Source of the DNA: Tropicimonas sp. IMCC6043
GTDB lineage: Bacteria > Pseudomonadota > Alphaproteobacteria > Rhodobacterales > Rhodobacteraceae
Direction of reading: 5' to 3'
Assembly (NCBI RefSeq): GCF_004146235.1
Contig: NZ_SELO01000001.1
Location: 372,001 to 436,000, forward strand
Length of the DNA: 64,000 bases
The position numbers and the translations under genes were made by a program. The notes beneath the pieces were generated by a model that made no database searches, was not told the origin of the DNA, and saw only the letters and a list, made by a program, of their open reading frames with translations. Shown here piece by piece: positions 14,870 to 55,835 of this stretch; position 1 is the first letter of the stretch, and the number at the start of each line of letters is the position of its first letter.

Positions 14870-15547
14870 TCAGACGCCTACCAGTTCCGCAGCGAAGCGT
14901 GCCGTGACGGAGACGGCCAGCAAGGCAGGGGTCGGCAGGATCTCGGACGTGATCTGCCGGAAGCGGCTCGTGTAGCTGATGCAATCGAAGACGGCGAGAT
15001 CGGCTTCCACCTCGGCCATCTGTCGTGCTGCGTCCCGGATCTCTTCTTCACCGGCATCCGGCTGAACCGCGATGACCGAAACGTCATAGCCCTTGGCGCC
15101 CCATCGCGTTCTGGCATTCTCCGCTTGCGCCGGCGTCGGGATGAAGATGCCGAGGCGTCCGCCCTGAAGGCAGCCGGTCACGGCGCCCGCAAGCAGGTCG
15201 GAGGCGAAATGGACACCGGGTGCCGCGAGAGATGGAAACCTTCCCGTGCAGCAGACGAATGTCGCCCGCGCCCCGAGATCGTCCAGTTCCGCAAGCCGCG
15301 CAGCCATGCCCTCGGTCACCACCTTCTTGTCAACGAGGATCGACCGTCCGCTCGGCAGGGTCGTGTAGAGCGTGGTGGCGGCCGAGGATGGCGCAGCCTG
15401 CGCCAGACCGGCCTCGTCGAGATGATCGAGCGCACCACGCATCTTCAGCTCGGCGGCATCGCCGAAGTCCCGCTCGAACTCGGCCAGCAATGCCGGGCGC
15501 GGCGCCTGGCCGATGACCAGAAGCCCGATGACCGGACGCGCGCTCAT
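14870..15547 (-). CDS. aroM: AroM-family protein
   Basis: A 225-residue protein of the AroM family (N-terminus IGLLVIGQAPRPAL). The function of AroM is unknown; in E. coli it is encoded next to shikimate kinase. Two conserved cysteines stand where Asp/Glu/hydantoin racemase-like proteins carry their catalytic pair: Cys99/100 (VCCTGRFP) and Cys189 (FDCISYT). The start overlaps the stop of hyuA by four bases (ATGA), so it is third in the DUF917-hyuA-aroM operon. With a hydantoinase-like and an S-methylthiohydantoin-desulfurase-like partner, a racemase-like role is a reasonable guess, not an established one. Confidence 0.85.
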   Translation of the reverse strand: MSARPVIGLLVIGQAPRPALLAEFERDFGDAAELKMRGALDHLDEAGLAQAAPSSAATTLYTTLPSGRSILVDKKVVTEGMAARLAELDDLGARATFVCCTGRFPSLAAPGVHFASDLLAGAVTGCLQGGRLGIFIPTPAQAENARTRWGAKGYDVSVIAVQPDAGEEEIRDAARQMAEVEADLAVFDCISYTSRFRQITSEILPTPALLAVSVTARFAAELVGV

Positions 15548-17106
15548 GCGACCGCCGCCGCGTCGCGGCGCATCGCGCGGGCCTCGCCGACCACGCGCAC
15601 GCGGGTCCGGATCGCCCGGCCCGGCAGATAGCTGAGCGGAAGATCCTCGACATCGATGACCTTGATCGTCGCGGCGTCCGCACCGGCCTCGACCGCCGCG
15701 GCGATGGCAGCCTCGCGCGCCGCCGCGATGGCGTCCTCGCGGTCCATGTCGCGATAGATCCTGTCGGTCTCGCCGCTGATCTGCGCCATGGCGGCGCCGA
15801 CCGCATTGGCGACTTCGTGATAGGGGACATGCACCACCTCGGAAATCCCCGGAACCGCCTCGGGGATCAGCATCGCGCCCCCGCCGACTGCGAGCAGCGG
15901 CACCTCGGTGGCATCGGTCTTCATCCGGTCAACGTTCTCGGCGACGGAGGCATGGATCTTGGCGAGCGCGGATTTGACGAACTCCGCGGAGAGGCCTGCG
16001 ACCCGGGACGCATCCCCGAGATCGAGCAGGCCGCTGGCCACAGCGATATCCGTCGCCGTCACCGTGTCGCCGCCGAAGACCAGCGCCTCCTGCCCGAGCC
16101 GGTAGCCGACAGATTGCGGCCCGACCGTCAGAGGATCGCGCCCGATGACCGTTCCGCCGCCGATGGCGATCGACAGCAGGTCGGGCATCCGGAACAGCGT
16201 GCGCACGCCGCCGACCTCGACGACATTGTTGGCCTCGCGCGGGAACCCTTTGACGAGACAGCCGATATCGGCCGTCGTTCCGCCCACGTCGCAGACCATC
16301 GCGTCCTCGATCCCGGCCAGCAGCGCCGCGCCGCGCATCGAGTTGGTCGGGCCGGAGGCGAAGGAGAAGACCGGGAATTCCCGCGCCGCCTCGGCAAGAA
16401 CGACGGTGCCATCGTTCTGGGTGATGAAGAGTTGCGCCTTCAACCCCGAGGACGCGACGGCGTCTACGAAAGCTTGCGTGGTCTCGCGCGCCAGCCCGAT
16501 CAGCGAGGCATTCATCAGTGCCACGTTCTCACGTTCCAGGAGGCCGATCCGGCCGAGCGTCGAGGAAAGCGTGAGATGGACGTCCGGGGCCTCGTTGCGA
16601 ACGATCTCGGCCGCGCGCTCCTCGCATTCGGCGGTGAGCGGCGAAAAGGTGGCGCTGATCGCAACCGCTTTCACGCCATCCGCCCGAATCTGGCGTGCGG
16701 CCCTTGCCACGGCAGCCTCGTCCATCGGCACGAGGGGGCGACCGTCATATTCGTGCCCGCCCTCAACGAGGTAGACGCCGCCATTGACCTTCGCGGCGAG
16801 ATCCTTCGGCCAGTCGCAGAAGGGCACGAGGCTGGCAGAGGCCGGGAGCGACACGCGGATCGCCGCCGCGCGCCCGAGGTTGCGCCGCTCGACCACCGCG
16901 TTGGTGAAATGGGTCGTGCCGATCATAACCGCCATGACATCGTCGGCCGCGTCTCCGGCCTTTGCCAGCAGATCCCGGAGCGCCGTTCGGACGCCGGAGG
17001 TGATGTCGGAGGTGGTGAAGGTCTTGACCGCGGCGATCACCTGGTTGCCGTCGAGCAGGGCCGCGTCCGTGTTGGTGCCGCCAACGTCGATGCCGATGCG
17101 CTTCAT
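15544..17106 (-). CDS. hyuA: Hydantoinase/oxoprolinase family protein (HyuA-type, ATP-dependent)
   Basis: A 520-residue HyuA-type protein of the ASKHA (actin-like ATPase) fold. The phosphate-1 loop is IDVGGTNTDAALL (residues 6-18), phosphate-2 is CDVGGTTADIG (271-281), and the adenosine loop is LLAVGGGAMLIPE. HyuA subunits activate the amide of hydantoins, 5-oxoproline or similar rings with ATP, normally together with a HyuB subunit. No hyuB is present anywhere in the window. It is coupled by four-base ATGA overlaps to DUF917 upstream and aroM downstream. The length is shorter than full-size HyuA (~680), so this is the stand-alone N-terminal-type form. Confidence 0.88.
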   Translation of the reverse strand: MKRIGIDVGGTNTDAALLDGNQVIAAVKTFTTSDITSGVRTALRDLLAKAGDAADDVMAVMIGTTHFTNAVVERRNLGRAAAIRVSLPASASLVPFCDWPKDLAAKVNGGVYLVEGGHEYDGRPLVPMDEAAVARAARQIRADGVKAVAISATFSPLTAECEERAAEIVRNEAPDVHLTLSSTLGRIGLLERENVALMNASLIGLARETTQAFVDAVASSGLKAQLFITQNDGTVVLAEAAREFPVFSFASGPTNSMRGAALLAGIEDAMVCDVGGTTADIGCLVKGFPREANNVVEVGGVRTLFRMPDLLSIAIGGGTVIGRDPLTVGPQSVGYRLGQEALVFGGDTVTATDIAVASGLLDLGDASRVAGLSAEFVKSALAKIHASVAENVDRMKTDATEVPLLAVGGGAMLIPEAVPGISEVVHVPYHEVANAVGAAMAQISGETDRIYRDMDREDAIAAAREAAIAAAVEAGADAATIKVIDVEDLPLSYLPGRAIRTRVRVVGEARAMRRDAAAVA

Positions 17107-18224
17107 GCCTGCTCTCCCTTGAAGACGGAGGTGAAATCGAGGTCGAACCCGAAGGCCCGTGGGCCGACCGCCGAGAGGCCGGCCTCGGTCAGGAACACTT
17201 CCGGCGCGGGCAGCGCGAGCACGCTCACCCTCTGACCAAACCGCAGAACATCCGTGCCGATCCCCTCGCCCGAAACCGTATCGAGCAGGCAGATCAGGTC
17301 CGGTGTCATCACAACCGGTTCGGCGTCGAGGAACGCCACCGAATACTCGTTCTGGAAATGCACCACCAGGGTCTGGCCGGCATTCTCGTTCAGCCCCTCG
17401 ATGCGGGCCTGACCGCGCAGGAAGCCTTCGGTGGCACGGCGTTCGACATCGACGACCTTGCCGGTGAAGAGCAGTTTTCCCTGCGCCGCGCCGAGCACGG
17501 CCTCGATCGGGTCGGCATGGGCGGCGCGGGCGGCGCGGACCTGCTGGCCGAGGTCGATCGCCTTGGACACCGAATAGAGAATGCCGTGCTGCTTGACCTC
17601 GGCGCCGCTGCGCGGTGCCTTGCAGGTCGCCGCGACCGAGCCGATCTCGGTGCAGGCCTTGCGGCTGATCCGCTCCATCCAGCGCCAGGAGGCGGCGCGC
17701 GGAAAGATGATCTCGTTGTCGCGGATATCCGCCATCGTCAGCGGGTAACAGCGCAGGCCGGCCACGGCGACCGAAGTCATCTGCGCCTCCGGATAGGCAC
17801 GCCCCATCGTGTCCGCATCGACCACCGGATAGCCGCCGATGGCCGCGACCTGCATCGGGTGCATGCCGTTGCCGCCACCGATCTCAAGCGCCATGACCGC
17901 GTCGAACTTGCGGCCGAGGTGTTCCTCCATCATGCGCAGCGGCTTGATCGCGAAGTCCGGATCGGCAAGGCGCTCCTGCCCGACGAGCGGCGCGCCCATG
18001 TTCGACAGCACGGCGACCAGCGCGTCGTCGGTCAGCGACATCGGGTCGATCAGCGTCACCTGATGCCCCTTCTCGTAGAGCAGGCGCATGTTGAGAAGCT
18101 TGTGATACGGGTCTCCCCCGCCGCCCGTTCCCAGGATCCACGCGCCGACGGCAAGGGCCTCGATGTCGTCGGCCGTCAGGACGCGGTGGGTCTGGCTGGG
18201 GTGCCTCTTGGCAAGGGTGTTCAT
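17103..18224 (-). CDS. DUF917 / S-methyl thiohydantoin desulfurase-like protein
   Basis: A 373-residue DUF917-family protein, first gene of the operon with hyuA and aroM. The N-terminal part has the family motif WILGTGGGGDPYHKL followed by IDPMSL and MALEIGGGNGMHP. The C-terminal part is beta-rich (VVHFQNEYSVAFLD). DUF917 has been linked to S-methyl thiohydantoin desulfurization, and it commonly neighbours HyuA-type genes. The ATG at 18224 has an AAAGGA site upstream; the upstream in-frame extension of 16 residues is not supported. The substrate here is unknown, but ring amide or thio-amide chemistry is implied by the partner gene. Confidence 0.85.
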   Translation of the reverse strand: MNTLAKRHPSQTHRVLTADDIEALAVGAWILGTGGGGDPYHKLLNMRLLYEKGHQVTLIDPMSLTDDALVAVLSNMGAPLVGQERLADPDFAIKPLRMMEEHLGRKFDAVMALEIGGGNGMHPMQVAAIGGYPVVDADTMGRAYPEAQMTSVAVAGLRCYPLTMADIRDNEIIFPRAASWRWMERISRKACTEIGSVAATCKAPRSGAEVKQHGILYSVSKAIDLGQQVRAARAAHADPIEAVLGAAQGKLLFTGKVVDVERRATEGFLRGQARIEGLNENAGQTLVVHFQNEYSVAFLDAEPVVMTPDLICLLDTVSGEGIGTDVLRFGQRVSVLALPAPEVFLTEAGLSAVGPRAFGFDLDFTSVFKGEQA

Positions 18225-18625
18225 CGCGCAATGATCCTTTGTGCCATCCGCCCGGGCGCACATGCTGTGCAAGGTCCGTGTTCGACCGGAGCTTGGTTGC
18301 TATCTGCCCCGAAATTCACCACGCACCGGCCGCATCGCAAATAATAAACCCCTATGGCACCGATCACCGGCGGCTATGCAGGGACCGCTCCAACCACGCA
18401 TATCGGTCTGTTTGCACATGCATTAGGCAGAGTTTAGCCAATCTTGATTAATTTGCGCGCATTCTTCCGGCATGTCATAAATCTCCTGCATGGTAGCCAT
18501 CAACAGTCGTTTGTTTTCCTCCCGCCCCGCTTCTGCCTTCAATGGGAGCGTGCAGAGGCCCGGTCGCCCGGGTTCCCCCCGATCCTTCCGGCCCGTCCCA
18601 AGGGCCGCCAACATGGAGCCGAACC
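18225..18625. promoter_or_regulatory. 401-bp divergent control region between the DUF917 operon and the dpp importer
   Basis: This stretch has a markedly AT-richer core (about 18335-18500). ATTAGGC (18422-18428) and GCCAAT (18437-18442) form an inverted repeat with one inserted base, of the LysR T-N11-A type, so this is a candidate site for the LysR protein encoded at 24188. TTGCGC (18453-18458) and CATAAA (18476-18481), 17 bases apart, could be the dppA promoter. On the minus strand a short AT-rich reading frame ending at 18423 could be a leader peptide but is not supported further. Confidence 0.4.
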
Positions 18626-20209
18626 ATGACACTCAGAAGATTATCCTCAGCGCTGACGGCCGCCGCAGTCGCGCTTTCTCTGGCGATGCCGGCACAGGCC
18701 GTCGAAAAGAAGGACAACCAGTTCTGGATGGTGATCGGTGGGCGGCAGCCGGTGTCGCACATCGACCCGGGCCAGTCCTACGACTACGCGATCCGGATGA
18801 TGACGCAGGCGCTCTATGACGGCCTGGTCAAATACACCGGCAATCCGCCGACCGTCGAGCCCTGGCTCGCCACGAACTGGGAGACCTCGGACGACGGGCT
18901 GACCTGGACCTTCCACCTGGCCGAGAATGCAACCTTCCACAACGGCGACCCGGTGACCGCGGAGGCCGTGGTCTATTCCTACCGCCGCACGCTGGAGATG
19001 AACGAGGGCGTGGCCTGGATGCTCTCCGACGTGGTCCAGCCCGACAACATCACTGCCCTGGACGAGCACACCGTGCAATTCGTGCTCGACCGTCCCTATG
19101 CGCCGTTCCTGAGCTTCCTGCCCTGGTGGTTCGTGGTGAACCCCGCGCAGGTCGAGGCCAACGTGGTCGACGGCGACTTCGGCAAGGCATGGCTGGCCGA
19201 GAATGACGCCGGCTCCGGCCCCTACATGCTCGAGCGCTTCGATCAGGGAACGGCCTACTGGCTCAAGCGGAATGCCGACTACTGGAAGGGCTTCCCCTAC
19301 GAGAACGAGGACATGGGCGGGATCATCTACCGGCTGATCCGCGAATCCGCCTCGCAGCGGGCGGCGCTGATCTCCGGCGAGGCGGACCTCGTGACGGATC
19401 TGACCCCGGAAGAGATCGAAACCGTGGGCGCCCGCCCGGATGTCGAAACAACCTCCACCCCGGCGCTGACCTCCTTCGGCCTGAAGATGAACACACAGGG
19501 CGAGCACATGTCGGACATCAACCTGCGCAAGGCGGTGGCTTACGCCTTCGACTACGACACCTTCGTGCAGGTCTATAACGGCAACGCGAAGCTCCAGACC
19601 TCGGCCTTCACCGATGCCGTGCAGGGCAAAGTCGATGTCGAGATGCCGCGGCAGGATCTCGAGAAGGCGAAGGAATATCTCGCCAAGTCGAAATACCCCG
19701 AGGGCGGCATCACGCTCGAATATGTCTATGTCCAGGGGCTGGAACAGCAGCGCCAGATGGGTCTTTCGCTGCTCAACAGCCTTCGTGATCTGAACATCGA
19801 GCTGGAAATGGTGCCGCTGACCTGGCCGAACATGGTTGCGCGCGCCGCCGACGTGGAACAGAGCCCCGACCTGATGGCGATCTTCGCCACGCCGGTCTCC
19901 ACCGACCCCGACGCGGTGGCGATCCAGTATCATCCGAGCAGCCACGGCAAATACTACGGCTCGCACTACCTGGATGACGCCGAACTCAACGCGATGATCG
20001 AGGAAGCCCGCAGCCTGTCGGACTGGGAAGAGCGCGCGCCGATCTATGCTGGGATCCAGCAGAAGATCGTCGATCTGCAGCCCGAGATTTTCGGCATGAT
20101 GCGCCAGCGCATGTTCGCCTACCGCGACTATGTGAACGGCTACTCCGACAGCCCGATCCGGATGACCAGCGAGGTGGATCTCTACCCGCTCTACATCCAG
20201 CCGAAGTAA
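18626..20209 (+). CDS. dppA: ABC transporter substrate-binding protein (peptide/nickel SBP_bac_5 type)
   Basis: A 527-residue exported binding protein. A signal peptide (MTLRRLSSALTAAAVALSLA, cleaved after AQA) is followed by the SBP_bac_5 fold with the usual landmarks: LYDGLVKY near the N-terminus, WTFHLAENATFHNGDPVTAE, SGPYMLERF and NLRKAVAYAFDYDTF. Such proteins bind peptides but also opines, glycosides and other amides. The ATG at 18626 has GGAG 7 bases upstream. It heads the dppBCDF operon and diverges from the DUF917-hyuA-aroM genes, so the ligand is probably the compound those enzymes act on. Confidence 0.9.
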   Translation: MTLRRLSSALTAAAVALSLAMPAQAVEKKDNQFWMVIGGRQPVSHIDPGQSYDYAIRMMTQALYDGLVKYTGNPPTVEPWLATNWETSDDGLTWTFHLAENATFHNGDPVTAEAVVYSYRRTLEMNEGVAWMLSDVVQPDNITALDEHTVQFVLDRPYAPFLSFLPWWFVVNPAQVEANVVDGDFGKAWLAENDAGSGPYMLERFDQGTAYWLKRNADYWKGFPYENEDMGGIIYRLIRESASQRAALISGEADLVTDLTPEEIETVGARPDVETTSTPALTSFGLKMNTQGEHMSDINLRKAVAYAFDYDTFVQVYNGNAKLQTSAFTDAVQGKVDVEMPRQDLEKAKEYLAKSKYPEGGITLEYVYVQGLEQQRQMGLSLLNSLRDLNIELEMVPLTWPNMVARAADVEQSPDLMAIFATPVSTDPDAVAIQYHPSSHGKYYGSHYLDDAELNAMIEEARSLSDWEERAPIYAGIQQKIVDLQPEIFGMMRQRMFAYRDYVNGYSDSPIRMTSEVDLYPLYIQPK

Positions 20210-20227
20210 TCGGCCCCGACAGCGAAG

Positions 20228-20268
20228 GACCGCGGCCTCCGGGCCGCGGTCAACGGCCCATCCGGGCC
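20228..20268 (+). promoter_or_regulatory. Two tandem hairpins between dppA and dppB
   Basis: GACCGCGGCC (20228-20237), loop TCCG, GGCCGCGGTC (20242-20251) is a perfect ten-pair stem. GGCCC (20255-20259), loop ATCC, GGGCC (20264-20268) follows directly. They sit between the binding-protein gene and the first permease gene, the usual place for message-stabilising or attenuating structures. Confidence 0.7.
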
Positions 20269-20288
20269 TACACGAGGATCACGTCCCG

Positions 20289-21299
20289 ATGCTGAAACTG
20301 ATCGCCAAACGCATGGGCCTGATGGTGGTGATGCTGCTCGGCCTTGCCGTCATCACCTTCACCATCGCCAACGTCGCCCCGGGCGATCCCGCGCGGCTGG
20401 CCGCCGGTCCAGACGCCAACCAGGCAATGGTCGAGCAGATCCGCGTCGAGCGCGGCTTCGACCGCCCCCTGCCGGTGCGCTTCGTGCTTTATGTCGATCA
20501 ATTGCTGCATGGCGATTTCGGCTCATCGGTCTATACCGGCCGGCCGGTGGCCCGCGACATCGCGCAGTTCCTTCCCGCGACAGTCGAACTCGTCCTGTTC
20601 TCCATATCCATCGCGATCGTTCTCGGCGTCCCGCTCGGTGTCATCGCGGCGGTCCGACAGAACAAGCCAATCGACCACGCGATCCGCCTGCTCTCCGTCT
20701 CCGGTGTCGCGCTGCCGATGTTCTGGCTCGGCCTCATGCTGCAATGGTATCTGGCGCTCGATCTCGGCCTCTTCCCGCTCGGTGGCCGGCTCGGAATCTT
20801 CACCGATGTGCCGGAGCCGATCACCGGGATGATCAGCATCGATGCACTCCTGCGCGGCCAGTTCGCGGTGGCCGGCGAGGCGCTCTGGCACATGGTGCTT
20901 CCGGCAACCGCCTTGAGCTTCCCGGCGCTCGCGGCAATCATCCGCGTCAACCGCGCCGAGATGCTGGAAGTGCTCGGCCGCGACTATGTCACCAACGCCC
21001 GCGCCCAGGGTATCGGCCCCTGGCGCATCATCGCGGTCTATTCGCTCAAGAACGCGATCCTACCGACTCTGGCCATGATCGGCCTGCGCTTTGGCTGGAT
21101 GCTCGGCGGCACCGTTCTGGTCGAAGGCGTGTTCGATTTCCCCGGCCTCGGGCTCTACGCCGCCAAGGCGGCGGTCTCGTCGGATTTCGAGCCGATCATG
21201 GCGGTCACCCTGACCCTCGGCGCCGCCTTCATGCTCATCAACCTCGTGATCGACCTGCTCTACGCGGTGCTCGATCCCCGCGTTCGCAACCAGATCTGA
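20289..21299 (+). CDS. dppB: ABC transporter permease (DppB family)
   Basis: A 336-residue inner-membrane permease with six predicted membrane segments. The DppB/OppB N-terminal motif (FTIANVAPGDPARL) and the EAA-type loop that meets the ATPase (VLGRDYVTNARAQG) are both visible. The C-terminal pattern VEGVFDFPGLGLYAAKA is typical. It pairs with DppC ten bases downstream. Confidence 0.93.
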   Translation: MLKLIAKRMGLMVVMLLGLAVITFTIANVAPGDPARLAAGPDANQAMVEQIRVERGFDRPLPVRFVLYVDQLLHGDFGSSVYTGRPVARDIAQFLPATVELVLFSISIAIVLGVPLGVIAAVRQNKPIDHAIRLLSVSGVALPMFWLGLMLQWYLALDLGLFPLGGRLGIFTDVPEPITGMISIDALLRGQFAVAGEALWHMVLPATALSFPALAAIIRVNRAEMLEVLGRDYVTNARAQGIGPWRIIAVYSLKNAILPTLAMIGLRFGWMLGGTVLVEGVFDFPGLGLYAAKAAVSSDFEPIMAVTLTLGAAFMLINLVIDLLYAVLDPRVRNQI

Positions 21300-21309
21300 G
21301 GCGGCCGAG

Positions 21310-22218
21310 ATGACAGACAGCAACATCACCGCCACCGACCTCCGCACCGCCGGCAAGCCCGCGCCCAAGAGCTTCCGCGAGACCCGGCGGATGATCCGGA
21401 CCTATTCGCGCTCCTTCTCCTCGATGCTCGGCCTCGCGCTGGTCGCCTTGTTCCTGTTCGTGGCGCTCTTCGGCCCGTGGCTTGCGCCCTACCCCGAAGA
21501 CGCCTATGGCGCGGTGAATTTCGACATCAAGCTCCTGCCACCCTCGCCCGACCACTGGTTCGGAACGGACCAGGTCGGATCCGACATCCTCTCGCGCGTG
21601 CTGATCGGCGCGCGGACCACGCTCCAGATCGGCCTTACCGTGACCGGCATCGCCGTGCTGATCGGCGTGCCGCTCGGCCTGATGGCCGGGATGGTCGGCG
21701 GATGGCTGGCCGAAACGATCATGCGGGTCACTGACATCTTTCTCTCGATTCCCGGTCTGATCCTCGCCATCGCCATCGTCGGTGCGCTCGGGCCGGGCAT
21801 CCTCAACGCAATGCTGGCCCTCTCGCTCGTCTGGTGGCCGGGCTATGTCCGCCTCGTGCAGGCCAAGACGCTCAGCCTGCGCAACGAGACCTATGTGGAC
21901 GCCGCCCGCGCGCTCGGCGCCGGGCCGTTCCGGATCCTCTTCGTCCACGTCCTGCCGAACTGCCTCTCCCCGATCGTCGTCAAGGCGTCGATGGACATGG
22001 GCATGGCGATCCTCGGCGCGGCGTCTCTGGGGTTTCTCGGCCTCGGCGCCCAGCCGCCTTATCCCGAATGGGGAGCCATGATCTCCACCGGGCGGGCCTA
22101 TCTGCCCGACTGGTGGTGGTGTTCCTTCTTCCCCGGCATGGCCATCTACCTGACGGTGCTCGGCTTCAACCTGCTCGGGGACGGTCTTCGCGACGTGCTC
22201 GACCCGCACCAGAGGTGA
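21310..22218 (+). CDS. dppC: ABC transporter permease (DppC family)
   Basis: A 302-residue permease with a cytoplasmic N-terminal extension (~45 residues) and six membrane segments. DppC landmarks are HWFGTDQVGSDILSRVLIGARTT (shown here as HWFGTDQVGSDI then SRVLIGART), the EAA loop YVDAARALGAGPFRIL and the C-terminal LNLLGDGLRDVLDPH. It forms the channel with DppB and is followed four bases later by dppD. Confidence 0.93.
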   Translation: MTDSNITATDLRTAGKPAPKSFRETRRMIRTYSRSFSSMLGLALVALFLFVALFGPWLAPYPEDAYGAVNFDIKLLPPSPDHWFGTDQVGSDILSRVLIGARTTLQIGLTVTGIAVLIGVPLGLMAGMVGGWLAETIMRVTDIFLSIPGLILAIAIVGALGPGILNAMLALSLVWWPGYVRLVQAKTLSLRNETYVDAARALGAGPFRILFVHVLPNCLSPIVVKASMDMGMAILGAASLGFLGLGAQPPYPEWGAMISTGRAYLPDWWWCSFFPGMAIYLTVLGFNLLGDGLRDVLDPHQR

Positions 22219-22222
22219 CGAC

Positions 22223-23239
22223 ATGGACTCGCTGCTCGACATCCGGAACCTCTCGCTGGTGTTCGACACGTTCGACGGCACCTATCACGCCATCGACGAC
22301 GTGAGCCTCAGCCTCAAGCCCGGCGAGGCGCTCGGGCTCGTGGGCGAGACGGGATGCGGCAAGTCCGTGCTCACCCGCGCCGCCTTCGGCCTCGTGCCGA
22401 GCCCGCCGGCGCGGATCACCCAAGGCTCGGTGAAGCTCGACGGAATGGAGCTTCTCGGCCTTACCGACCGCGCCCTGCGCCAGGTGCGCGGGCGCCAGGT
22501 GGCAATGATCTTCCAGGACCCGATGACCTACCTGAACCCGGTCTTCAAGGTCGGCACCCAACTCGTGGACGCGATCCGCGCCCAGCATGGTGGCGCCATC
22601 GACCGCAAGGCGGCCCGGGAGATCGCGCTCGACATGCTGGAGAAGGTGCACCTGCCGAACCCGCTGCGGCAGTTCAATTCCTACCCGCACGAGCTTTCCG
22701 GCGGCATGCGCCAGCGGATCCTGATCGCCATGGCGCTGGCAGCGCGGCCGAAGCTCCTCATCGCCGACGAGCCGACCACGGCGCTCGACGTCACGATCCA
22801 GGCGCAGATCCTCGACCTGATGGCGGAACTCGTCGACGACATGAATCTGTCAATGATCATGATCTCCCACGATCTCGGCGTGGTCGCGCAGGTATGTTCG
22901 CGCGTGGCGGTGATGTATGCCGGAAAGATCGTCGAGGACGCCCCGATCCGCGAGATCTTCGAGACCCCCGTGCATCCCTACACCAAGGGCCTTCTGGGCG
23001 CCCTGCCCCACCCCTTCCGGCCGGCCGATGACCTCGAGAGTATCCCCGGCAACCTGCCCGACCTGCTCGACCCGCCACCGGGCTGCCGGTTTGCCGGCCG
23101 CTGCACCTTCCGCCGCCCCGAATGCGACGCGCCGATCCCGCTGGCGGAGATCGCGCCGCGCCATTCGGTCGCCTGCGTCCTGCGCCCGGGCGCAGTCACG
23201 CCGGCCGTCGCCGCGACGAAGGATCTGAACCATGCTTGA
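22223..23239 (+). CDS. dppD: ABC transporter ATP-binding protein (DppD family)
   Basis: A 338-residue ATPase. Walker A is GETGCGKS, the signature is LSGGMRQR, Walker B is LLIADEPTTALD, and the H-loop is ISHDLG. The C-terminal oligopeptide-ABC domain carries the conserved cysteines (PGCRFAGRCTF, PECD) that hold an iron-sulfur cluster in some homologues. The last eight bases overlap the start of dppF. Confidence 0.93.
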   Translation: MDSLLDIRNLSLVFDTFDGTYHAIDDVSLSLKPGEALGLVGETGCGKSVLTRAAFGLVPSPPARITQGSVKLDGMELLGLTDRALRQVRGRQVAMIFQDPMTYLNPVFKVGTQLVDAIRAQHGGAIDRKAAREIALDMLEKVHLPNPLRQFNSYPHELSGGMRQRILIAMALAARPKLLIADEPTTALDVTIQAQILDLMAELVDDMNLSMIMISHDLGVVAQVCSRVAVMYAGKIVEDAPIREIFETPVHPYTKGLLGALPHPFRPADDLESIPGNLPDLLDPPPGCRFAGRCTFRRPECDAPIPLAEIAPRHSVACVLRPGAVTPAVAATKDLNHA

Positions 23240-24191
23240 GATCGACAACCTGAAGGTGCATTTCCCGGTCGCGTCCGGACAGACCGTCCGCGCGGTGGAC
23301 GGGGTCACCCTGACGCTCTCGGCTGGCGAGACGATGGGACTGGTCGGCGAGAGCGGGTCGGGAAAATCCACGGTGGGCAAGGCGGCGCTTCGCCTCGTGC
23401 CGTCGACATCGGGCGCGATCCGGATCGGCGATCTCGACGTCACAAAGGCTCGCGGCCCCCAGATGCGCAAGCTGCGCTCGCGGGCCCAGATGGTGTTTCA
23501 GGACCCGCATTCCTCCCTCAATCCGCGCATGACCATTCGGCGCGCCGTCGCCGAGGGGCTGATCCTCAACACTTCCCTCCGCGGCCGGGCGCTCAACGAA
23601 AAGGTGGCCGGGATGCTGGAGTCGATGGGCCTGCCGGCGCAGTTTCACGACCGCTTCCCGCACGAGCTGTCCGGCGGCCAGAAACAGCGGGTCTGCATCG
23701 CCCGCGCTTTGGCGCTCGACCCCGACCTGCTGGTCCTCGACGAACCCACCTCGGCGCTCGATGTCTCGGTTCAGGCACAGATCCTCCGCGTCCTGCGCCG
23801 CCTGCACGAGGCCCGGCCGGAGATGACGCAGCTCTTCATCTCGCACAACCTCGCGGTGGTCCGTTTCCTGTGCCAGACCGTCGCCGTGATGTATCTGGGG
23901 CGTATCGTCGAAATGGGGTCGGTGAGCCGCGTGTTCGATGCGCCGGCCCATCCATACACCAGGGCGCTGCTTTCCGCCGTGCCAGTCCCGGAAGCAAAGC
24001 GACGTCCCGACCGGATCCGCCTGCAGGGAGACATTCCCAGCCCGACCGCGCTTCCGAAGGGCTGTGCCTTTCACACCAGGTGTCCGATCGCGAAAAAGGG
24101 CGTATGCAATGTCGAGGAACCGCCGGAGATCGGACTGGAGGACGGTCGGGTGGTAAGATGTCACTTCGCCTTGGGACCCGCGCCTGAATGA
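23232..24191 (+). CDS. dppF: ABC transporter ATP-binding protein (DppF family)
   Basis: A 319-residue ATPase and partner of DppD. Walker A is GESGSGKS, the Q-loop is VFQDPHSSLNPRM, the signature is LSGGQKQR, Walker B is LLVLDEPTSALD, and the H-loop is ISHNLA. The C-terminal cysteine motif is FHTRCPIAKKGVC. The stop overlaps the LysR start by four bases (ATGA), so the regulator is translated with the transporter. Confidence 0.93.
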   Translation: MLEIDNLKVHFPVASGQTVRAVDGVTLTLSAGETMGLVGESGSGKSTVGKAALRLVPSTSGAIRIGDLDVTKARGPQMRKLRSRAQMVFQDPHSSLNPRMTIRRAVAEGLILNTSLRGRALNEKVAGMLESMGLPAQFHDRFPHELSGGQKQRVCIARALALDPDLLVLDEPTSALDVSVQAQILRVLRRLHEARPEMTQLFISHNLAVVRFLCQTVAVMYLGRIVEMGSVSRVFDAPAHPYTRALLSAVPVPEAKRRPDRIRLQGDIPSPTALPKGCAFHTRCPIAKKGVCNVEEPPEIGLEDGRVVRCHFALGPAPE

Positions 24192-25141
24192 GCTTTCGCC
24201 TTGACCGCCTGGCGGTGCAACTCGACTGGAACCTTCTTCGTACCTTCATGGTGATCGTGCAGGAGCGCTCGATCACCGGCGCGGCGGCACGGCTCAACGT
24301 CACGCAGCCATCGGTCTCCGCCGCGCTCCGGCGTCTCGAGGAACGGCTCGAGCTCAGGCTGGTCGAACGCGGCTCGGGGCAGACCTTCGTGGTGACCCGC
24401 GCAGGCGAGGCGGTCTATCGCGAGGCGCTGGAGATCTATGGCGGCGTCGTCCGGCTCAACAATATCGACGCGAGCGACGGCCTCCAGCTCTCCGGCAATG
24501 TCGTGATCCACCGCTCCAGCCATCTCGAAATGGACCGGATCATGACCGTGCTGGCCGAGTTCCGCAATCAGCACCCGGGCGTCACGTTCTCCCTCCGATC
24601 GGTCCCCTGCGCGGAGGTGACCCAGGCGCTCCTGCACCGGGTTTCGTCGCTGGGGCTCTGCACCCGCATCGACCCGACGATCCAGCGTCTGAAGGCCCTC
24701 CCGCTCACGCCACAGGAGTTCGGCGTCTTCTGCGGCCCCGAACATCCGCTCTATCGCCAGCAGGTGGCAGACCCCGCCCTCCTCGCGGACTCCGACGTCG
24801 TCGGCTTCGAGGAAGACCAGATGGCCGGAGCCTTGTCCGCCGTGGCACGGTTCCGGATGCAGAACGGGATCGGGGCGCGCTTCATCGCCGCGGCGACCGG
24901 GATCGTGGATCTCGTGGAACTCATCGAGAGCGGCACGGCCATCGGCTGCATGTCGCGCGGCCACGCGGCGCGCTACGGCTACCGTCTCTGGCAGATCCCG
25001 CTCGATGTCCCGCCGCCCGTGGTCGAGGTGTATTCGCTTGTAGACGGCGAACGCCTGATGACGCCGCTCGAGGTCGCCCTGCTGGAGACCCTTGAGGCGG
25101 AAGGGCTCGCGCAAATGCCCCGCCCCAGATCCGACGTCTGA
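24188..25141 (+). CDS. LysR-family transcriptional regulator
   Basis: A 317-residue LysR regulator. The N-terminal helix-turn-helix (about residues 14-73) has NLLRTFMVIVQERSITGAAARL and QPSVSAALRRLEERL. The effector domain begins at about residue 95. It is the last gene of the dpp operon, coupled by ATGA to dppF, and probably senses the imported compound and controls the divergent region at 18225-18625. That target is inferred from position; the imperfect ATT-GGC/GCCAAT repeat there is consistent. Confidence 0.9.
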   Translation: MSFRLDRLAVQLDWNLLRTFMVIVQERSITGAAARLNVTQPSVSAALRRLEERLELRLVERGSGQTFVVTRAGEAVYREALEIYGGVVRLNNIDASDGLQLSGNVVIHRSSHLEMDRIMTVLAEFRNQHPGVTFSLRSVPCAEVTQALLHRVSSLGLCTRIDPTIQRLKALPLTPQEFGVFCGPEHPLYRQQVADPALLADSDVVGFEEDQMAGALSAVARFRMQNGIGARFIAAATGIVDLVELIESGTAIGCMSRGHAARYGYRLWQIPLDVPPPVVEVYSLVDGERLMTPLEVALLETLEAEGLAQMPRPRSDV

Positions 25142-25222: not shown

Positions 25223-27238
25223 CTATTTCTTGTCGGTCTCTCCGGATGTGTCCGTGCCCTTGGACAGCGGTTCGCTTTCCTCCAGCGGCGGCGCCGCCGC
25301 CGAGAGCGGCTCGCCTCCGGCGTCCTCGAGTTCCTCCGCCGTCACGTTGAAATCCGGAGAGCCGGGCGGCGGGTAGCTCAGTTTCCCGTCCAGCTGACGC
25401 TGACGGTCTCCCGGGAGATTCGGAAACGGCAATTCCTGTTTCCGCCGCCAGGCCGAAACCTCCCGCTTGACGTCGCGAGACCGGTCGGCGTCGAGCCCAT
25501 CGTCCCTGCCCAGATAGAGAGTATGCGACGGGAAGGCGAACCCCGTGCCGGACAGCTCGACGATCGACATGATCCTGAACTGGACATCCTCCTTAATCGC
25601 AAAGAAGTCGTTCCATTCGCGGGTCACGGCATAGACCCGGATATCGATATCGAGCGAGGACGCGCCGAAATTCGAAAACCTGACGCGCACTGTGTCGCTG
25701 TCGATCCGCGGATGACCGATGAGCATCTCGCGCAGCTTCGCCACCACGTATCGCAGCTGATCTTCGTCGGTCTCTTAGCGCAGCCCGATCGTCTGGCTGA
25801 TCAGCATGCGGTCGCATTGCGCCCAGTTGACGATCTGCATGTCTGCGAACTGGGCGTTGGGCACCGTGATCATCGTCCGGTCCTTGGCCCGGACCTGGGT
25901 AGATCGGATGCCGATGCTCTCGACCGTCCCGCTCCGGTCGCCAAAGGTGCAGAAATCTCCGACGCGGATCGGCCGGTCGAGGTAGAGAATGAACCCGCCG
26001 ATCAGATTCTCCAGGGTCGGCCGGATCGCGAGGGCGATGGCAAGCCCGCCGATTCCGAGGCCGGCCAGCAGGCTGAACACCGGCAGGCCGATATCTTGCG
26101 CGCCATAGGCAACGATCACGATGCCGCCCACTATGCCGATGATCCGGGCGATCAGCCTCAGCATGTGGGCGTCGAAATTTTGCTCGGGCAGTGCGCTTCT
26201 GGAAATTGCCGTCTCGAAGATAGCCAGCAACAGGACCCAGAAGGTCCAGGCGAGTGCCAGATAGATCACCGCGGTCAGGCCGGCATACGTAACCGCCGCG
26301 AACGTTCCGGCGACGATGATCTGGCCGGAGAGGAAATAGCGCAGGCCGAGGCCGGCGAGGAGCACGGCCAGCGGGCTCAGCAGAAGGCGCCAGCGCTCGC
26401 CGACCCGACCGCCCCAGTCGGGATGCGTTGTCGCGCGGTTCCAGGCAAGAAGGATGAGCACCGATATCGCCGTCAGGAGGACAGACGCGACGATCTTCCA
26501 GATCGGTGTGCCGAGGACCGGGCGCTTGAGCTTTTCCGGCACCGCATCGGCCAGTGCGACCGGAACCATCGGCCCGGTGAACTGGCGGATCTCCGACCCC
26601 CACGAGCGAACTGGTCCGGGGGTATGAAGCGGAAGGTTTTCGACCGTCCTGTAGAATTGCGGGGCCGAATTCACCGTGTGTTGGCTGAACAGGAACTCGC
26701 CCTGCCGGGGCCCGTCCGCGATCCGGACGATGCGGAAGGGCGTGTCCGGCACGGCATAGGCGGCGGGGCTTCCGGGTTTGAAGGCCGTGGCATCCGGCAC
26801 CGTGTCGAGCGCCGGCAGCGGGACACGGTTGAAGATGTCGAGAAGATAGGTCGCGGTCTCCGCCCCGACCTCGCGGCGCGTCGCCTCGGGAACCTGGGAC
26901 AGGTCGATCAGCGAGAGCCACTGGTCCAGAACCAGCGCGATCCGGTCCGCGCTCTGGCGGTCATGCGCCGTCTTGTAGGCGGTCATCGCAGCTTCGAACT
27001 CGGCGCTCAGCCGCTGGAAGCTTGCGATCACGCCCCTAGGACTGCTCGTCTCCAAACCATATTGCGGGCCAACCACCGCGCCGGCCGACGCCTGTCCCGG
27101 ATCGGCGCCAGCCTCCGAAGGCGCCTCCTGAGCCACGGCGATTGCCGACATGAGCAACAGGGCCGCGAGTCTCATCGTCGCGGCCGAGGCGGCGCTGAGC
27201 AGGCACCTTGTCCATCCGAAATGTGAAGAAGCGCGCAT
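25223..27238 (-). pseudogene. MscS-family mechanosensitive channel, interrupted by an in-frame TAA
   Basis: A 671-codon gene for a large MscS-type channel: signal-like N-terminus, ~210-residue periplasmic region, several membrane segments, then the pore helix and MscS beta domain (LAIALAIRPTLENLIGG, split here; RPIRVGDFCTFGDRSGTVESIG). Codon 488 is TAA (25775-25777). Reading through gives LISQTIGLR-stop-ETDEDQLRYVV and a normal C-terminal domain that ends at 25223 with an acidic tail. Both halves are in the same frame. Homologues usually have Tyr at that place (LRYET), so a single-base change explains it. The first 487 residues keep the pore but lose the cytoplasmic vestibule. ATG 27238 is used; an ATG at 27175 begins a better signal peptide. 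Confidence 0.85.
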
Positions 27239-27240
27239 TT

Positions 27241-27534
27241 TCAATATCCGTTCGGATCGACAGTTTCGAAGGAAAGGGTGCGCCGCAAGCTGAAATTGCC
27301 GCGGCTGCGGCTCCCGACCGCCAATGAGCGGAAGGTTCGCTGACCGCTCGCGCCGGGTTCGAACCGCGCGAAGCGCGTTGCGAAGAGCTTCGAGAGTCCG
27401 GCCATGTACCAGCCGTGCACCGTGATCAGAAGCACCAGAACAAGCAGGCCGAAATCTTCCAGGCCCGACACCACGGTCGTTCCAACCGCGGTCAGGACGG
27501 GATCGACCGTGTCTTTCACAACGCTTTCATCCAT
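27241..27534 (-). CDS. Small membrane protein upstream of the MscS gene
   Basis: A 97-residue protein with one strong hydrophobic segment at about residues 26-46 (FGLLVLVLLITVHGWYMAGL) and a basic, Arg-rich C-terminal tail. I recognise no named family. It ends two bases before the MscS ATG and is probably co-transcribed with it. The composition is a little less GC-biased than the region. An accessory role for the channel is only a guess from position. Confidence 0.45.
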   Translation of the reverse strand: MDESVVKDTVDPVLTAVGTTVVSGLEDFGLLVLVLLITVHGWYMAGLSKLFATRFARFEPGASGQRTFRSLAVGSRSRGNFSLRRTLSFETVDPNGY

Positions 27535-43961: not shown

Positions 43962-45407
43962 TCAGTTGACAACGAGCGAAGCGGCGGCGTTGGCGGCGAG
44001 GCTGTCGACGCCGAAGAGGTTGACCACGCCGAACACCATCGCCGCGGCGCAGACCATGAGCACGCCCCACTGGATCGGCGACATCGTGCCGTCGATCCGC
44101 TCCACCTCCTCCGAGCCGAAATACATGTAGTAGACGATCCGGAGATAGTAGAAGGCGGAGATCACCGAGGCGATGGCGCCGGCCACGGCAAGCCAGACGA
44201 GGCCCGCATCGAGCGCGGCCATCAGCACCGCGAACTTGCCGAAGAAACCGACAAGCGGCGGCACGCCGGCGAGCGAGAACAGCAGCACCAGCATGGCAAG
44301 CGCCTTCATCGGCTCGGTCTTCGAAAGCATCGAGAGGCTGTCGATCCGGGTGATATGCTGGCCGTCGCGCTCCATCGAGAGAATGAAGGCGAAGGTGCCG
44401 ATATTCATGGTGACGTAGATCGCCATGTAGATAAGCATCGCCTGGACGCCCTGTTCGGTCCCCGATGCCAGCCCGATCAGCGCGAACCCCATGTGAGAAA
44501 TCGAGGAATAGGCCATCAGCCGCTTGATGTCGCGTTGGCCGATCCCGGCGATGGCGCCGAGGAAGACCGAGAGCACCGCCATCAGCGCCACGATCTGCTG
44601 CCAGTCGGCCACGGCCTCGCCGAAGGCGTCATGCATGGCGCGGGCGAACATCGCCATCGCGGCCATCTTGGGCGCGGAGGCGAAGAAGGCGGTGACCGGC
44701 GTGGGCGAGCCTTCGTAGACATCGGGCGTCCACATGTGGAAGGGCACGGCGGAGACCTTGAAGGCGAGGCCCGAGATGATGAAGGTCAGGCCGAGCAGCA
44801 GGCCGAAGCCGACATGTCCGTCGGTGGCGGAGGCGAAGATGTCCTTGAAGACGGTGGAGCCGGCATAGCCATAGGCCAGCGAGGAGCCGTAGAGCAGCAG
44901 GCCAGAGGAGAGCGCGCCGAGCACGAAGTATTTCAAGCCGGCTTCAGTGGAGCGCAGGCTGTCGCGGCGGATCGAGGCGATGACATAGAGCGAGAGCGAC
45001 TGCAGCTCGAGCCCCATGTAGAGCGCGATCAGGTCGCCGGCCGAGAGCATCACCATCATGCCGACTGTCGAAAGGACGATCAGGATCGGGTATTCGAAAA
45101 CCAGCGCGTTGCGGCGCGAGAAGAACCCTTCGGAGAGGATCAGCACGAGGCCGGCCGCGAGAAGCAGCGTCACCTTGGCAAATCGGCCGAAGGCATCGTC
45201 GATGAACATGCCCCCGAAAGCGACCCGCGTCGTCCCGCCAGAAAGCATGATCCAGATCGCCGTGGCGATCAGAACGGCCGCCGATATCCAGCACAGCAGC
45301 GCCGCGACCTTGTCCTTGCCGGTCCAGGTCGCGACCAGCAGCGCCACCATGGCGTAGAGCGCGAGGAAGATCTCGGGCAGGATGATTGCGAGGTCTTGGG
45401 AACTCAT
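43962..45407 (-). CDS. nuoN: NADH-quinone oxidoreductase subunit N
   Basis: A 481-residue antiporter-like membrane subunit of complex I and part of the proton-pumping arm. It has ~14 hydrophobic segments, with the broken-helix region around [17 protein letters not shown] and [15 protein letters not shown]. The charged Lys/Glu residues within the helices are those of the family. It is last of the nuo genes on this strand, two bases after nuoM. Confidence 0.96.
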
Positions 45408-45409
45408 CG

Positions 45410-46960
45410 TCAGTTATCTCCGGCCGAGGCCAGCTCGATCGCCGGCACGTAGTCGTTCAGGGCAACCTCGTATTGCCCGATGAGGGCCTCGACGGAGGGC
45501 CCAATGATGTCGGTGACGAGCGCCGGGTAGACCCCGAGCAGCAGCGTCATCGCCACCAGCGGCGCGAAGATCGCCTTCTCGCGCCCGTCCATGTCCTTGA
45601 TCGTCTTCAGGCTCTCCTTGATGAGTTGGCCTAGCATGACCCGGCGGTAGAGCCAGAGCCCGTAGCAGGCCGAGAAGATCACGCCCGAGGTCGCCACCAC
45701 CGCCACCCAGGTGTTGACCTGGAAGATCGCCATCAGGGTCAGGAACTCGCCGATGAACCCGCTGGTGCCGGGCAGGCCGACATTGGCCATGGTGAAGAGC
45801 ATGAAGATCAGCGCGTAGACCGGCATCCGGACCATCAGCCCGCCATAGGCCGCGATCTCGCGCGTGTGCATCCGGTCATAGACCACGCCGACGACAAGGA
45901 AGAGGGCCGCGGAGACGAAGCCGTGGCTCAGCATCTGGAAGATGGCGCCGTCAAGCCCCTGCTGGTTTACCGTGAAGATGCCCATCGTCACGTAGCCCAT
46001 ATGGGCGACCGAGGAATAGGCGATCAGCTTCTTCATGTCGTCCTGCGCCATGGCGACCAGCGAGGCATAGACGATGGCGATGGCCGAGAGCCAGAAGACG
46101 AAAGTCGACATCACCTCCGAGCCGACCGGGAACATCGGCAGGGAGAAGCGCAGGAAACCGTAGCCGCCCATTTTCAGCAGCACCGCGGCCAGGATCACGG
46201 AACCGGCGGTCGGCGCCTGGACGTGGGCGTCCGGCAACCAGGTGTGAACCGGCCACATCGGCATCTTCACCGCGAAACTGGCGAAGAAGGCGAGGAACAG
46301 GAGCGTCTGCATGCCGCCAATGACCTGGATGCCGAGAACCGGGAAGGTCTCGGAGGCGAAGCTGTGGGTCATCAGCGTGGGAATGTCGGTGGTGCCGGCA
46401 TCGACATACATTGCGATCATCGCCACCAGCATCAGCAGAGAGCCAAGGAAGGTGTAGAGGAAGAACTTGAACGCCGCGTAGATCCGGTCCTTGCCACCCC
46501 AGATGCCGATTATCAGGAACATCGGGATCAGTCCGGCCTCGAAGAAGAGGTAGAACAGCACGAGGTCGAGCGCGGTGAAGACGCCGAGCATCAGCGTCTC
46601 GAGCACCAGGAAGGCGATCATGTATTCCTTCACCCGGGTCGTGACGTTCCAGCAGGCGGCAATGGTCAGCGGCATCAGGAAGGTCGTGAGCATCACGAAG
46701 AGGATCGAGATGCCGTCCACGCCCATCTTGTATTTCAGCCCCATCAGCCAGTCGCGGTCCTCGACGAACTGGAAGCCGGTATCGTCGGGATCGAACCCCG
46801 CGAGCAGGAAGAGCGAGATGAAGAGCGTCGCCAGTGTGGCGATCAGGGCGAGCCACTTGGCGTTGCGCTGCGCGGCCGCGTCCTCGCCGCGCAGGAAGAG
46901 CGCCAGGATCAGCGCTGCGATCAGCGGCAGGAAGATGATGATGGAGATCAGGTTCTGCAT
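45410..46960 (-). CDS. nuoM: NADH-quinone oxidoreductase subunit M
   Basis: A 516-residue antiporter-like subunit of complex I. Landmarks are [19 protein letters not shown] and [14 protein letters not shown]. It has about 14 membrane segments. It is 18 bases downstream of nuoL and two bases upstream of nuoN. Confidence 0.96.
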
Positions 46961-46978
46961 TGTCTCGGTTCCCCGCGC

Positions 46979-49114
<2,136 letters not shown>

Positions 49115-49119
49115 GTGCC

Positions 49120-49425
49120 TCAGCCCTTCATGTTGGAGACGTCTTCGACCCGGATCGTCCCGCGGTTGCGGAAGAAGCAGACCAGGATCGCGAGGCCGAT
49201 GGCGGCCTCGGCGGCGGCGACAGTCAGGATGAACAGGGTAAAGACCTGCCCGGTGAGATCGCCGAGATAGGCGGAGAAGGCGACGAGGTTGATATTGACC
49301 GCGAGCAGGACGAGTTCGATCGACATCAGGATGACGATGACGTTCTTCCGGTTCAGGAAGATGCCGAAGATGCCGATAACGAACAGCGTCGCGGCAACGG
49401 CCAGGTAATGTTCCAGTTGAACCAT
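49120..49425 (-). CDS. nuoK: NADH-quinone oxidoreductase subunit K
   Basis: A 101-residue membrane subunit with three helices. The family stretch is [17 protein letters not shown] with its buried Glu, and a second Glu lies in [12 protein letters not shown]. It is five bases upstream of nuoL and 85 bases after nuoJ; that short gap can form a small GCCC/GGGC hairpin. Confidence 0.96.
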
Positions 49426-49510
49426 GCGCGGTCCCTCGATCTTGTCTGCGCCCTCGCGGGCGGTGCGTTCCGGTCTCGCGGCCCGGGTATCCGGACCGTC
49501 GGCGGGCGGG

Positions 49511-50131
49511 TTACTTCAGCCCCTGCCCCGGCTCGATATCCACGAGCTCCATCGTCTTCTTCGGGTCGCGATACATCTGCTGCAGGATGTCCTGGCGCTT
49601 GATGTCGCGGCGGTGGCGCATCGTCAGCACAATGGCGCCGATCATCGCCACCAGCAGGATGAGCCCGGCGAGTTGGAACAGCAGGAAATACCTGTCGTAG
49701 ATCAGCATGCCGAGCGCGGCGGTGTTGTGCGCCCCGGTGCCCGCGGGCGTGGCCACCGGCGCGTCGAGGATCGCGACGCCGCCGCCCAGTTCCCAGGAGC
49801 CGAAGGCCATGGCGAGCTGCATGATCAGCACCAGCCCGATCACCAGCGCCAGTGGCAGCTGCTTGGCCATCTCCGCGCGCAGCTCGGCAAAGTCCACGTC
49901 GAGCATCATGACGACGAAGAGGAAGAGCACCATGACCGCGCCGACATAGACGATGATGAGCAGCATGGCGACGAACTCGGCGCCGAGCAGCACCATGAGG
50001 CCGGCGCCGGAGAGGAAGGCGAGGATCAGCCACAGCACCGAATGCACCGGGCTGCGGGAGACCACCGTGAAAATGCCACCCACCAGCAGGCAGAGGGCAA
50101 AGAGGAAAAAGACGAAATCGACGACTGTCAC
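49511..50131 (-). CDS. nuoJ: NADH-quinone oxidoreductase subunit J
   Basis: A 206-residue membrane subunit with five helices. The third-helix landmark [19 protein letters not shown] contains the pi-bulge region that gates quinone-linked movement. It is four bases downstream of an inserted carboxymuconolactone-decarboxylase-like gene instead of directly after nuoI. Confidence 0.95.
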
Positions 50132-50135
50132 GTGG

Positions 50136-51028: not shown

Positions 51029-51031
51029 GGA

Positions 51032-52072: not shown

Positions 52073-52087
52073 CTTGCCTCATCTTCC

Positions 52088-52474: not shown

Positions 52475-52479
52475 GCATC

Positions 52480-55311: not shown

Positions 55312-55835
<524 letters not shown>

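Follow-up and report, generated by a model that had tools for sequence, protein, structure and literature searches.

A HyuB-less HyuA–DUF917–AroM operon facing a peptide-class importer in Tropicimonas: a candidate inducible unit for the uptake and opening of cyclic amides

The 64,000-nucleotide stretch of Tropicimonas sp. IMCC6043 analyzed here (contig NZ_SELO01000001.1, positions 372,001 to 436,000; hereafter the window) carries two divergent operons, one for three enzymes, namely a DUF917 protein, a short HyuA-type ATPase and AroM, and the other for a peptide-class ATP-binding cassette (ABC) importer that ends in a gene for a LysR-type regulator (Table 1). All nine genes passed their Pfam cut-offs and lie at the positions given in an earlier, sequence-only reading of this DNA. 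The couplings described in that reading also hold, with ATGA overlaps joining AroM to HyuA (15544–15547), HyuA to DUF917 (17103–17106) and the DppF-type ATPase gene to the LysR gene at the end of the importer operon (24188–24191). The control region between the operons is present as well, and its length is 398 bp instead of the 401 bp first reported, the start codons being the ATG at 18227 for DUF917 and the ATG at 18626 for the solute-binding protein. The plus-strand operon has the membership of a peptide-class importer, with a family-5 binding protein, two permeases and two oligo_HPY ATPases, and the regulator has both the helix-turn-helix and the co-inducer domain of LysR proteins. Against the DppA dipeptide-binding model NF043070, the solute-binding protein scored 81.4 bits, where the cut-off is 1005. 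Its best relatives in the PDB, 19 at E 1e-20, carry mixed names at similar E-values and were not used to assign a substrate.

Table 1. Features of the divergent operon pair, with positions in the window
Feature	Position	Strand	Pfam matches and remarks
AroM family protein, 225 aa, predicted two-cysteine racemase/epimerase	14870..15547	-	
Short HyuA-type ATPase (520 aa) lacking the usual C-terminal part	15544..17106	-	PF05378, PF01968
DUF917 / S-Me-THD-like protein, 374 aa, proposed HyuB replacement	17103..18227	-	PF06032, PF20906
Divergent control region, 398 bp	18228..18625		
LysR-type operator candidate, CATA-N8-YTATTTGC	18337..18356	-	conserved; 109 bp before DUF917 ATG
Family-5 solute-binding protein, signal-peptide-like N-terminus	18626..20209	+	PF00496, 253 bits
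DppB/OppB-type permease	20289..21299	+	PF00528, PF19300
DppC/OppC-type permease	21310..22218	+	PF00528, PF12911
DppD-type ATPase	22223..23239	+	PF00005, PF08352
DppF-type ATPase	23232..24191	+	PF00005, PF08352
LysR-type regulator, ATGA-coupled to the DppF-type ATPase gene	24188..25141	+	PF00126, PF03466

Conservation of the neighborhood and its control region

Conservation across genomes, which the sequence-only reading had named as a check, was assessed in 43 related loci collected by one scan of a genome collection with the DUF917 protein, a set from which the nearest records may have been left out. The layout recurs more often than chance would allow: the importer is divergent from DUF917–HyuA in 18 of the 43 loci, and HyuA abuts DUF917 (gap <150 bp) in 35. 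Six other loci have HyuA 3.0–3.5 kb downstream of DUF917 on the same strand, and in the remaining two (L025, L033) it was not seen within the <3.5 kb of downstream sequence that each provides. AroM is present in 21 loci, and the cognate LysR gene was seen in 12. Among the divergent loci, all nine genes are found in eight (L002–L008, L010; L004 is from Albimonas pacifica CGMCC 1.11030), AroM does not adjoin HyuA in four (L011–L013, L037), and AroM is present with no LysR match in five (L014, L016, L017, L038, L039); a contig end cuts L017 and likewise L009, the one remaining member of the group. Importer genes are also divergent, in other arrangements, in L024, L031, and L032, which were left out of the 18. 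When all open reading frames of the 43 loci were compared with one another, the gene groups of the unit were the most widely shared, and beyond the unit only the group of a HyuA–HyuB fusion in L039 covered more than four loci. More distant loci are rearranged: the importer of L020 lies upstream and shares the strand, and in L041–L043 HyuA precedes DUF917. The unit is found across the Alphaproteobacteria and its HyuA–DUF917 core extends to Acidobacteria, Actinomycetota, and an archaeal plasmid; plasmid-borne pairs occur in Rhizobium, Shinella, Mesorhizobium, Roseibium, and Ketogulonicigenium and on further plasmid records of a Streptomycetaceae strain and Haloferax mediterranei. Few genomes within the order of the window genome have a DUF917 relative at E 1e-40 (6/196, the window's included).

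The loci vary in two further respects. In some HyuA–DUF917 clusters (L051 12001–16811, L060 10001–12144, and L041 9995–12171), two or three distinct DUF917 genes stand in tandem, as though DUF917 were the exchangeable, specificity-giving part. In addition, a second, distant HyuA lies close to the unit in L014, L016, L017, L038, and L039. The one in L039 (15280–19407), the sole one scanned, is a 1375-aa HyuA–HyuB fusion in which both PF01968 and PF19278 were found; thus, old-style and HyuB-less systems can coexist.

Alignment of nine control regions revealed a conserved block, CATA-N8-YTATTTGC, which in nearer relatives contains the palindrome ATAG-N7-YTAT. LysR sites belong to the T-N11-A motif class, and this palindrome is of that kind. 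The block occurs once in the window and in 0/100 shuffles. Every one of the 14 loci showing the cognate LysR gene (the window, L002–L008, L010–L013, L037, and L045) has the block with zero to two mismatches, as does L009, whose contig stops before the LysR position. The motif was found from the window, L002, L003, L006–L010, and L045, of which L003 and L045 represent two strains of one species, Salipiger abyssi, leaving L004, L005, L011, L012, L037, and L013 as independent loci. The first five of these have one mismatch, a match equalled in 0/200 shuffles, and L013 has two, equalled in 9/200. No such site was detected in L014, L016, L038, and L039, which have no LysR match, or in L017, whose end is not seen; the best matches there have 2–5 mismatches, lie at other places and were equalled by 16–200 of 200 shuffles. 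The control region contains a conserved LysR-type site, a candidate operator that the LysR protein may bind. A consensus scan of the same region for promoters and terminators gave no match.

Three linked enzyme families

The linkage of the three enzymes was analyzed in 289 alphaproteobacterial genomes, among which related genomes are not independent. A search with the window HyuA gave 22 other matches of 494–683 bits, nearly full length, separated by a gap down to 131 bits from a class of mostly longer frames (~690 aa and more). A DUF917 gene adjoins 20 of these 22 short-HyuA genes, in both gene orders; for the remaining two, in genomes G356 and G453 of one family, DUF917 lies elsewhere in the genome. 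At the level of genomes, DUF917 is present in all 20 that have a short HyuA, the window's included, and DUF917 without short HyuA occurs in four (G234, G266, G326, G339), with low scores of 64–129 bits. AroM is found in 12 of the 289 genomes, all 12 of them among the 20 with short HyuA and DUF917 (hypergeometric probability 2e-16, or 3e-15 when the window genome is left out, with no correction for phylogeny), and it lies at most 4 kb from HyuA or DUF917 in 15 of 16 matches, the window's included, the exception being that of G238.

Several loci depart from this pattern. L081 (9496–10491; genome G326, 0.8 Mb, 98% complete) has DUF917 with no HyuA match and is an exception to the pairing rule. 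At the unlinked loci (G453 C1:417976 and 2443526; G356 C12 and C24; L073–L076), a CoA-transferase III gene adjoins HyuA in L073 and an amidohydrolase gene adjoins DUF917 in L074. Four actinomycete long frames (863–889 aa) were fetched as candidates for natural HyuA–DUF917 fusions and rejected: in L084–L086, DUF917 and HyuA are in different frames and the long frames seem to be high-GC extensions, and L087 has a weak HyuA match only, out of frame.

The sequence-only reading described a HyuA without HyuB, and this holds for the entire genome, which has one PF05378 match, that of the window, and zero PF02538 matches in an assembly listed as 100% complete; the PF02538 search matched in 6 of 14 control genomes. 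The window HyuA is also truncated relative to full HyuA proteins, since PF01968 covers only positions 1–176 of 291 and the C-terminal domain PF19278 is absent. Both phosphate motifs (DxGGTxTD and DxGGT) are present, and D7, G9, T11, T13, D14, D273, G275, T277, and D280 are each found in 57/57 sequences (conservation counts here and below leave out homologues with internal stops or X, or <75% query cover, and, for HyuA and the binding protein, also those <300 bits). For caprolactamase, the available text of PMC8453981 gives a proposal in which phosphorylation falls to the HyuA-type subunit and hydrolysis to the HyuB-type metal subunit. The window HyuA resembles that of CapAB, HyuAB, and 5-oxoprolinase in being a HyuA ATPase with both phosphate motifs, from which ATP-dependent opening of a ring amide would be expected (same text), and it differs from them in its length (~500–537 aa for proteins of the window type), in lacking the C-terminal part and a GxxPGP motif, and in having DUF917 as its usual neighbor in a genome in which no HyuB was found. 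In the absence of HyuB, a short HyuA must therefore be complemented by some other partner, for which DUF917, its usual neighbor, is the candidate.

The DUF917 protein is a clear member of its family (PF06032, 180.8 bits; PF20906, 216 bits; gathering cut-off 27), with a predicted structure of high confidence (pLDDT, the predicted local distance difference test, of 91.4). Its only close solved relative in our search, CV_3147 of Chromobacterium violaceum (PDB 2o3i), has 25% identity and an entry title without a function.

AroM has the fold of the Asp/Glu/hydantoin racemase superfamily, and its two cysteines are placed as in the racemases, as the sequence-only reading had noticed (C100 aligned with C77 and C189 with C179; hhalign probability 76.9, E 2.1e-5). 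Each cysteine is found in 32/35 AroM homologues, and 3/35 have neither. Thus, like the racemases of this superfamily, arylmalonate decarboxylase, and OpaE, AroM has the fold and both catalytic cysteine positions; it differs in belonging to its own Pfam family and in its identity of ~10–16% to the listed PDB chains. Against the E. coli-type AroM model NF007788, it scored 138 bits, below the cut-off of 198. We predict AroM from these sequence comparisons to be a racemase or epimerase with the two-cysteine fold. A precedent for such a role is OpaE, a member of the racemase family that, as described in the available portions of PMC12661438 and PMC7530659, epimerizes a peptide-derived heterocycle. 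AroM was in print by 1986, to judge from the title of a cited reference; in 2024, the part of PMC11055893 available described both AroM and DUF917 proteins as experimentally uncharacterized. In a haloarchaeon, Bacillota, Sodalis, and actinomycetes, AroM repeatedly occurs with DUF1177 (PF06675) and a transporter of the OPT or Dpp type (L056 11090–12007; L057 10954–11904; L059 9045–9983; L058; L068–L070), and a literature search found no function for DUF1177.

A possible ring-opening pathway and its alternatives

The proposal that a conserved, co-regulated unit imports and opens a ring-amide compound is well supported, and the contexts of other AroM genes suggest what that compound may be. Thirteen AroM loci outside the 43 were examined (L045, L046, L048, L056–L059, L068–L072, and L077), and 12 of them have a Dpp/Opp or OPT transporter gene in the available stretch, L077 having none; neither permease type was found in four DUF917 loci without short HyuA (L079–L081, L083). 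Peptidase or M20-type genes are near AroM in L046, L048, L056, L057, L059, and L068–L070, and in L047 genes for a dipeptidase and an isoaspartyl peptidase adjoin HyuA–DUF917. Because of these peptide transporters and peptidases near AroM, peptide-derived rings are favored. Our preferred, if tentative, reading is that the operon pair serves the inducible breakdown of a cyclic amide taken up from outside, most likely peptide-derived, such as a related lactam or a cyclic dipeptide (2,5-diketopiperazine), the latter not being among the compounds named in the sequence-only reading. For its mechanism and substrate we infer the following: the Opp/Dpp-class importer would bring the ring compound into the cell, AroM would epimerize it, or its product, to the usable stereoisomer, and HyuA would use ATP to phosphorylate the oxygen of the ring amide, giving an O-phospho-iminol. 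DUF917 would then take the place of HyuB, adding water at the C=N carbon so that the ring opens, and cellular peptidases could complete the breakdown. An oxygen amide would need HyuA in this scheme, whereas thio rings need no ATPase because sulfur is already a good leaving group, and the chemistry proposed for DUF917 fits the NCBIfam names of its relatives, which refer to thiohydantoin and S-methyl-thiohydantoin. The unit would accordingly be a variant of the ATP-dependent cyclic amidohydrolases. A broader extension of this scheme, to which we give somewhat less credence, is that short HyuA–DUF917 forms a separate, widespread class of ATP-dependent ring-amide hydrolases in bacteria and archaea that evolved from, or alongside, ATP-free desulfurases via acidic residues and an ATPase partner, and that together with an AroM epimerase and a Dpp/OPT importer it serves cyclic-dipeptide salvage.

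The same machinery might instead act on a hydantoin, a ureide, or a pyrimidine-like ring, for example a 5-substituted hydantoin, entering via the peptide-class importer, with AroM as a hydantoin-type racemase; we place this reading close behind the preferred one, and a number of contexts speak for it and weigh against a peptide-derived substrate. HyuA–DUF917 without AroM stands beside a cytosine permease gene, with a cysteine-synthase-type gene, in L061 and near genes for a PucR-type regulator and an amidase in L041, the pair lies near CoA-transferase and TauD genes in L015, and amidohydrolase genes are also among the neighbors of pairs without AroM. Similarly, in the available portions of published work, neighboring locus numbers place DUF917 and hydantoinase genes beside a permease in Clostridioides difficile, in Lactobacillus rhamnosus a DUF917 gene is listed with a hydantoinase gene and a cytosine permease, and in Eubacterium limosum one stands beside a PucR-type gene. 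Such cytosine-permease, PucR, and other non-peptide contexts fit hydantoin-, ureide- or pyrimidine-like rings. However, the unit contains no N-carbamoylase or ureidase gene, and other AroM genes are near peptide transporters and peptidases. Because the HyuA–DUF917 pair occurs in both peptide and non-peptide contexts, it is probably a general ring-amide tool; for the version with AroM and a peptide importer, cyclic dipeptides and peptide-derived lactams come first and hydantoin-like rings a close second. Alternatively, the substrate of HyuA and DUF917 could be an ordinary lactam, such as 5-oxoproline or caprolactam, or a compound of the carboxylation or CoA type, with AroM and the importer serving the pathway at other points. 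Among the NCBIfam models, HyuA indeed matches the caprolactamase alpha subunit best (97 bits, cut-off 1000), acetophenone and acetone carboxylase subunits also match it, and CoA-transferase genes are near some distant pairs, but the presence of AroM and a family-5 importer alongside the pair in this clade, together with the consideration that 5-oxoproline would hardly need a racemase of the AroM kind, makes this distinctly unlikely. More improbable again is that the importer takes linear peptides or opines and that the three enzymes are mere genomic neighbors: the solute-binding protein does resemble several family-5 binding proteins of solved structure, including heme-binding protein A, AgaA, and dipeptide-binding proteins, yet the operons diverge around a shared conserved site in all 14 LysR-bearing loci and the layout is kept in 18 of 43.

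The least probable alternative, which we consider very hard to sustain, is that DUF917 works here as a (S-methyl)thiohydantoin desulfurase in an operon for the degradation of thiohydantoins, such as those from ergothioneine-type histidine derivatives. The desulfurases, whose function is taken here from NCBIfam names only, have the same two Pfam domains, PF06032 and PF20906, and their two models are the sole NCBIfam matches of the window DUF917 at E 0.001. The scores, however, argue against both the S-methyl thiohydantoin desulfurase identity and the thiohydantoin substrate entertained in the sequence-only reading: 106 bits for NF058532 (cut-off 450) and 100.7 bits for NF058529 (cut-off 440). 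None of the 34 DUF917 proteins of the window kind, the window's included, comes near the cut-offs (for NF058532, the best E-value among them is 4.5e-34 and that of the window 1.9e-30). By contrast, the thiohydantoin desulfurase cut-off was passed by L079 (593 bits) and L083 (533 bits; the second DUF917 of G210), neither of which adjoins a short HyuA. Two other HyuA-less proteins, L080 (a 273-aa part) and L081, fail both cut-offs. For a comparison of residues, 5 of 71 DUF917 proteins were removed (L056, L072, L079, L081, L083), leaving 66 of the HyuA-coupled kind, among which L025, L033, L074, and L076 are without an adjoining HyuA in the available stretch. E85, E115, N120, D139, and E185 are found in 66/66 of these and are absent in L079 and L083, whereas D137, R143, R189, N293, and E294 are found in 65 or 66 of 66 and are common also to those two desulfurase-grade proteins. 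Thus, the window DUF917 differs from the desulfurases in its scores, in five other invariant polar residues, and in being coupled to an ATPase.

The preferred reading, an ATP-dependent opening of a peptide-derived ring by HyuA and DUF917, has further points to contend with. The window HyuA lacks the adenosine motif GxxPGP, having GYRLGQEA at that place; PGP is absent from the aligned rows inspected, every third of the 57 HyuA sequences, and column counts over all 57 give no GxxPGP. There is no dipeptidase gene within the unit. Importer permeases are found in only 22 of the 43 loci and are absent in six with full 10-kb flanks (L015, L018, L021, L028, L040, L041). The tie of DUF917 to HyuA is weakened by L081, which keeps E115, N120, D139, and E185 in a genome without HyuA, and by the DUF917 proteins of L056, L058, and L072, which are near AroM with no adjacent HyuA and, at 199–262 bits, are nearer to the desulfurases. 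AroM, moreover, is not confined to DUF917 genomes elsewhere: E. coli has AroM and no PF06032, and among 296 genomes from the class to which a Nocardia locus belongs, with AroM in 5 and DUF917 in 32, three of the five with AroM have no DUF917 match. An OPT transporter gene lies close to each of these five actinomycete AroM genes, and two of the five have DUF917 nearby. Finally, the association with cyclodipeptide oxidase was not recovered in the alphaproteobacterial class: CDOB (PF19585) had no match in any of the 289 genomes, the window's own included, but this model was also silent in 14/14 controls.

The claim that the pathway was undescribed stands in part. The gene families and their co-occurrence are already known; specifically, DUF917, AroM, hydantoin racemases, and peptide ABC transporters are enriched near cyclodipeptide-oxidase genes, and the authors of that work suggested hydantoin- or allantoin-like substrates (PMC11055893). 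The window unit differs from those neighborhoods in being without an oxidase, and its HyuA–DUF917 pairing and its control by a LysR protein are not described in the part of that paper available. Within the literature searched, which lacked most subscription papers, no enzyme study of HyuA–DUF917 and no function for AroM were found. What appears new on that basis is the HyuB-less pairing, the confinement of AroM to HyuA–DUF917 genomes within the alphaproteobacterial sample, the separation of these DUF917 proteins from the desulfurases, and the operator candidate. The authors of PMC6061476, in the available text, consider that many genes annotated as 5-oxoprolinase may encode a lactamase or a cyclic-dipeptide hydrolase, and a 2013 study describes the degradation of cyclic dipeptides as little known (PMC3852281, as available). 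Questions about AroM, DUF917, and cyclic-dipeptide breakdown converge in this small pair of operons, which comes with its regulator and a candidate operator, and a proposed role that is concrete and testable is given to both families. If a HyuB-free ATP-dependent amidase is indeed present, it would be useful for opening stable lactams.

Neighboring genes

The genes flanking the unit seem unrelated to it, with TRAP DctM and SH3-domain genes on one side and a mechanosensitive-channel gene on the other. The latter, an MscS-type gene beside the LysR gene (25223–27244, minus strand), is split by an in-frame TAA, with the beta domain in 25775–27244 and the C-terminal domain in 25223–25747, reflecting either a nonsense mutation or a sequencing error. 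Farther along the window, the genes of complex I (nuo; 43962–61389) are on both strands, the minus strand carrying those for G-, L-, and antiporter-type subunits (43962–54828) and the plus strand those for the 49-kDa and 51-kDa subunits (56917–61389), a split that an inversion or a misassembly would account for.

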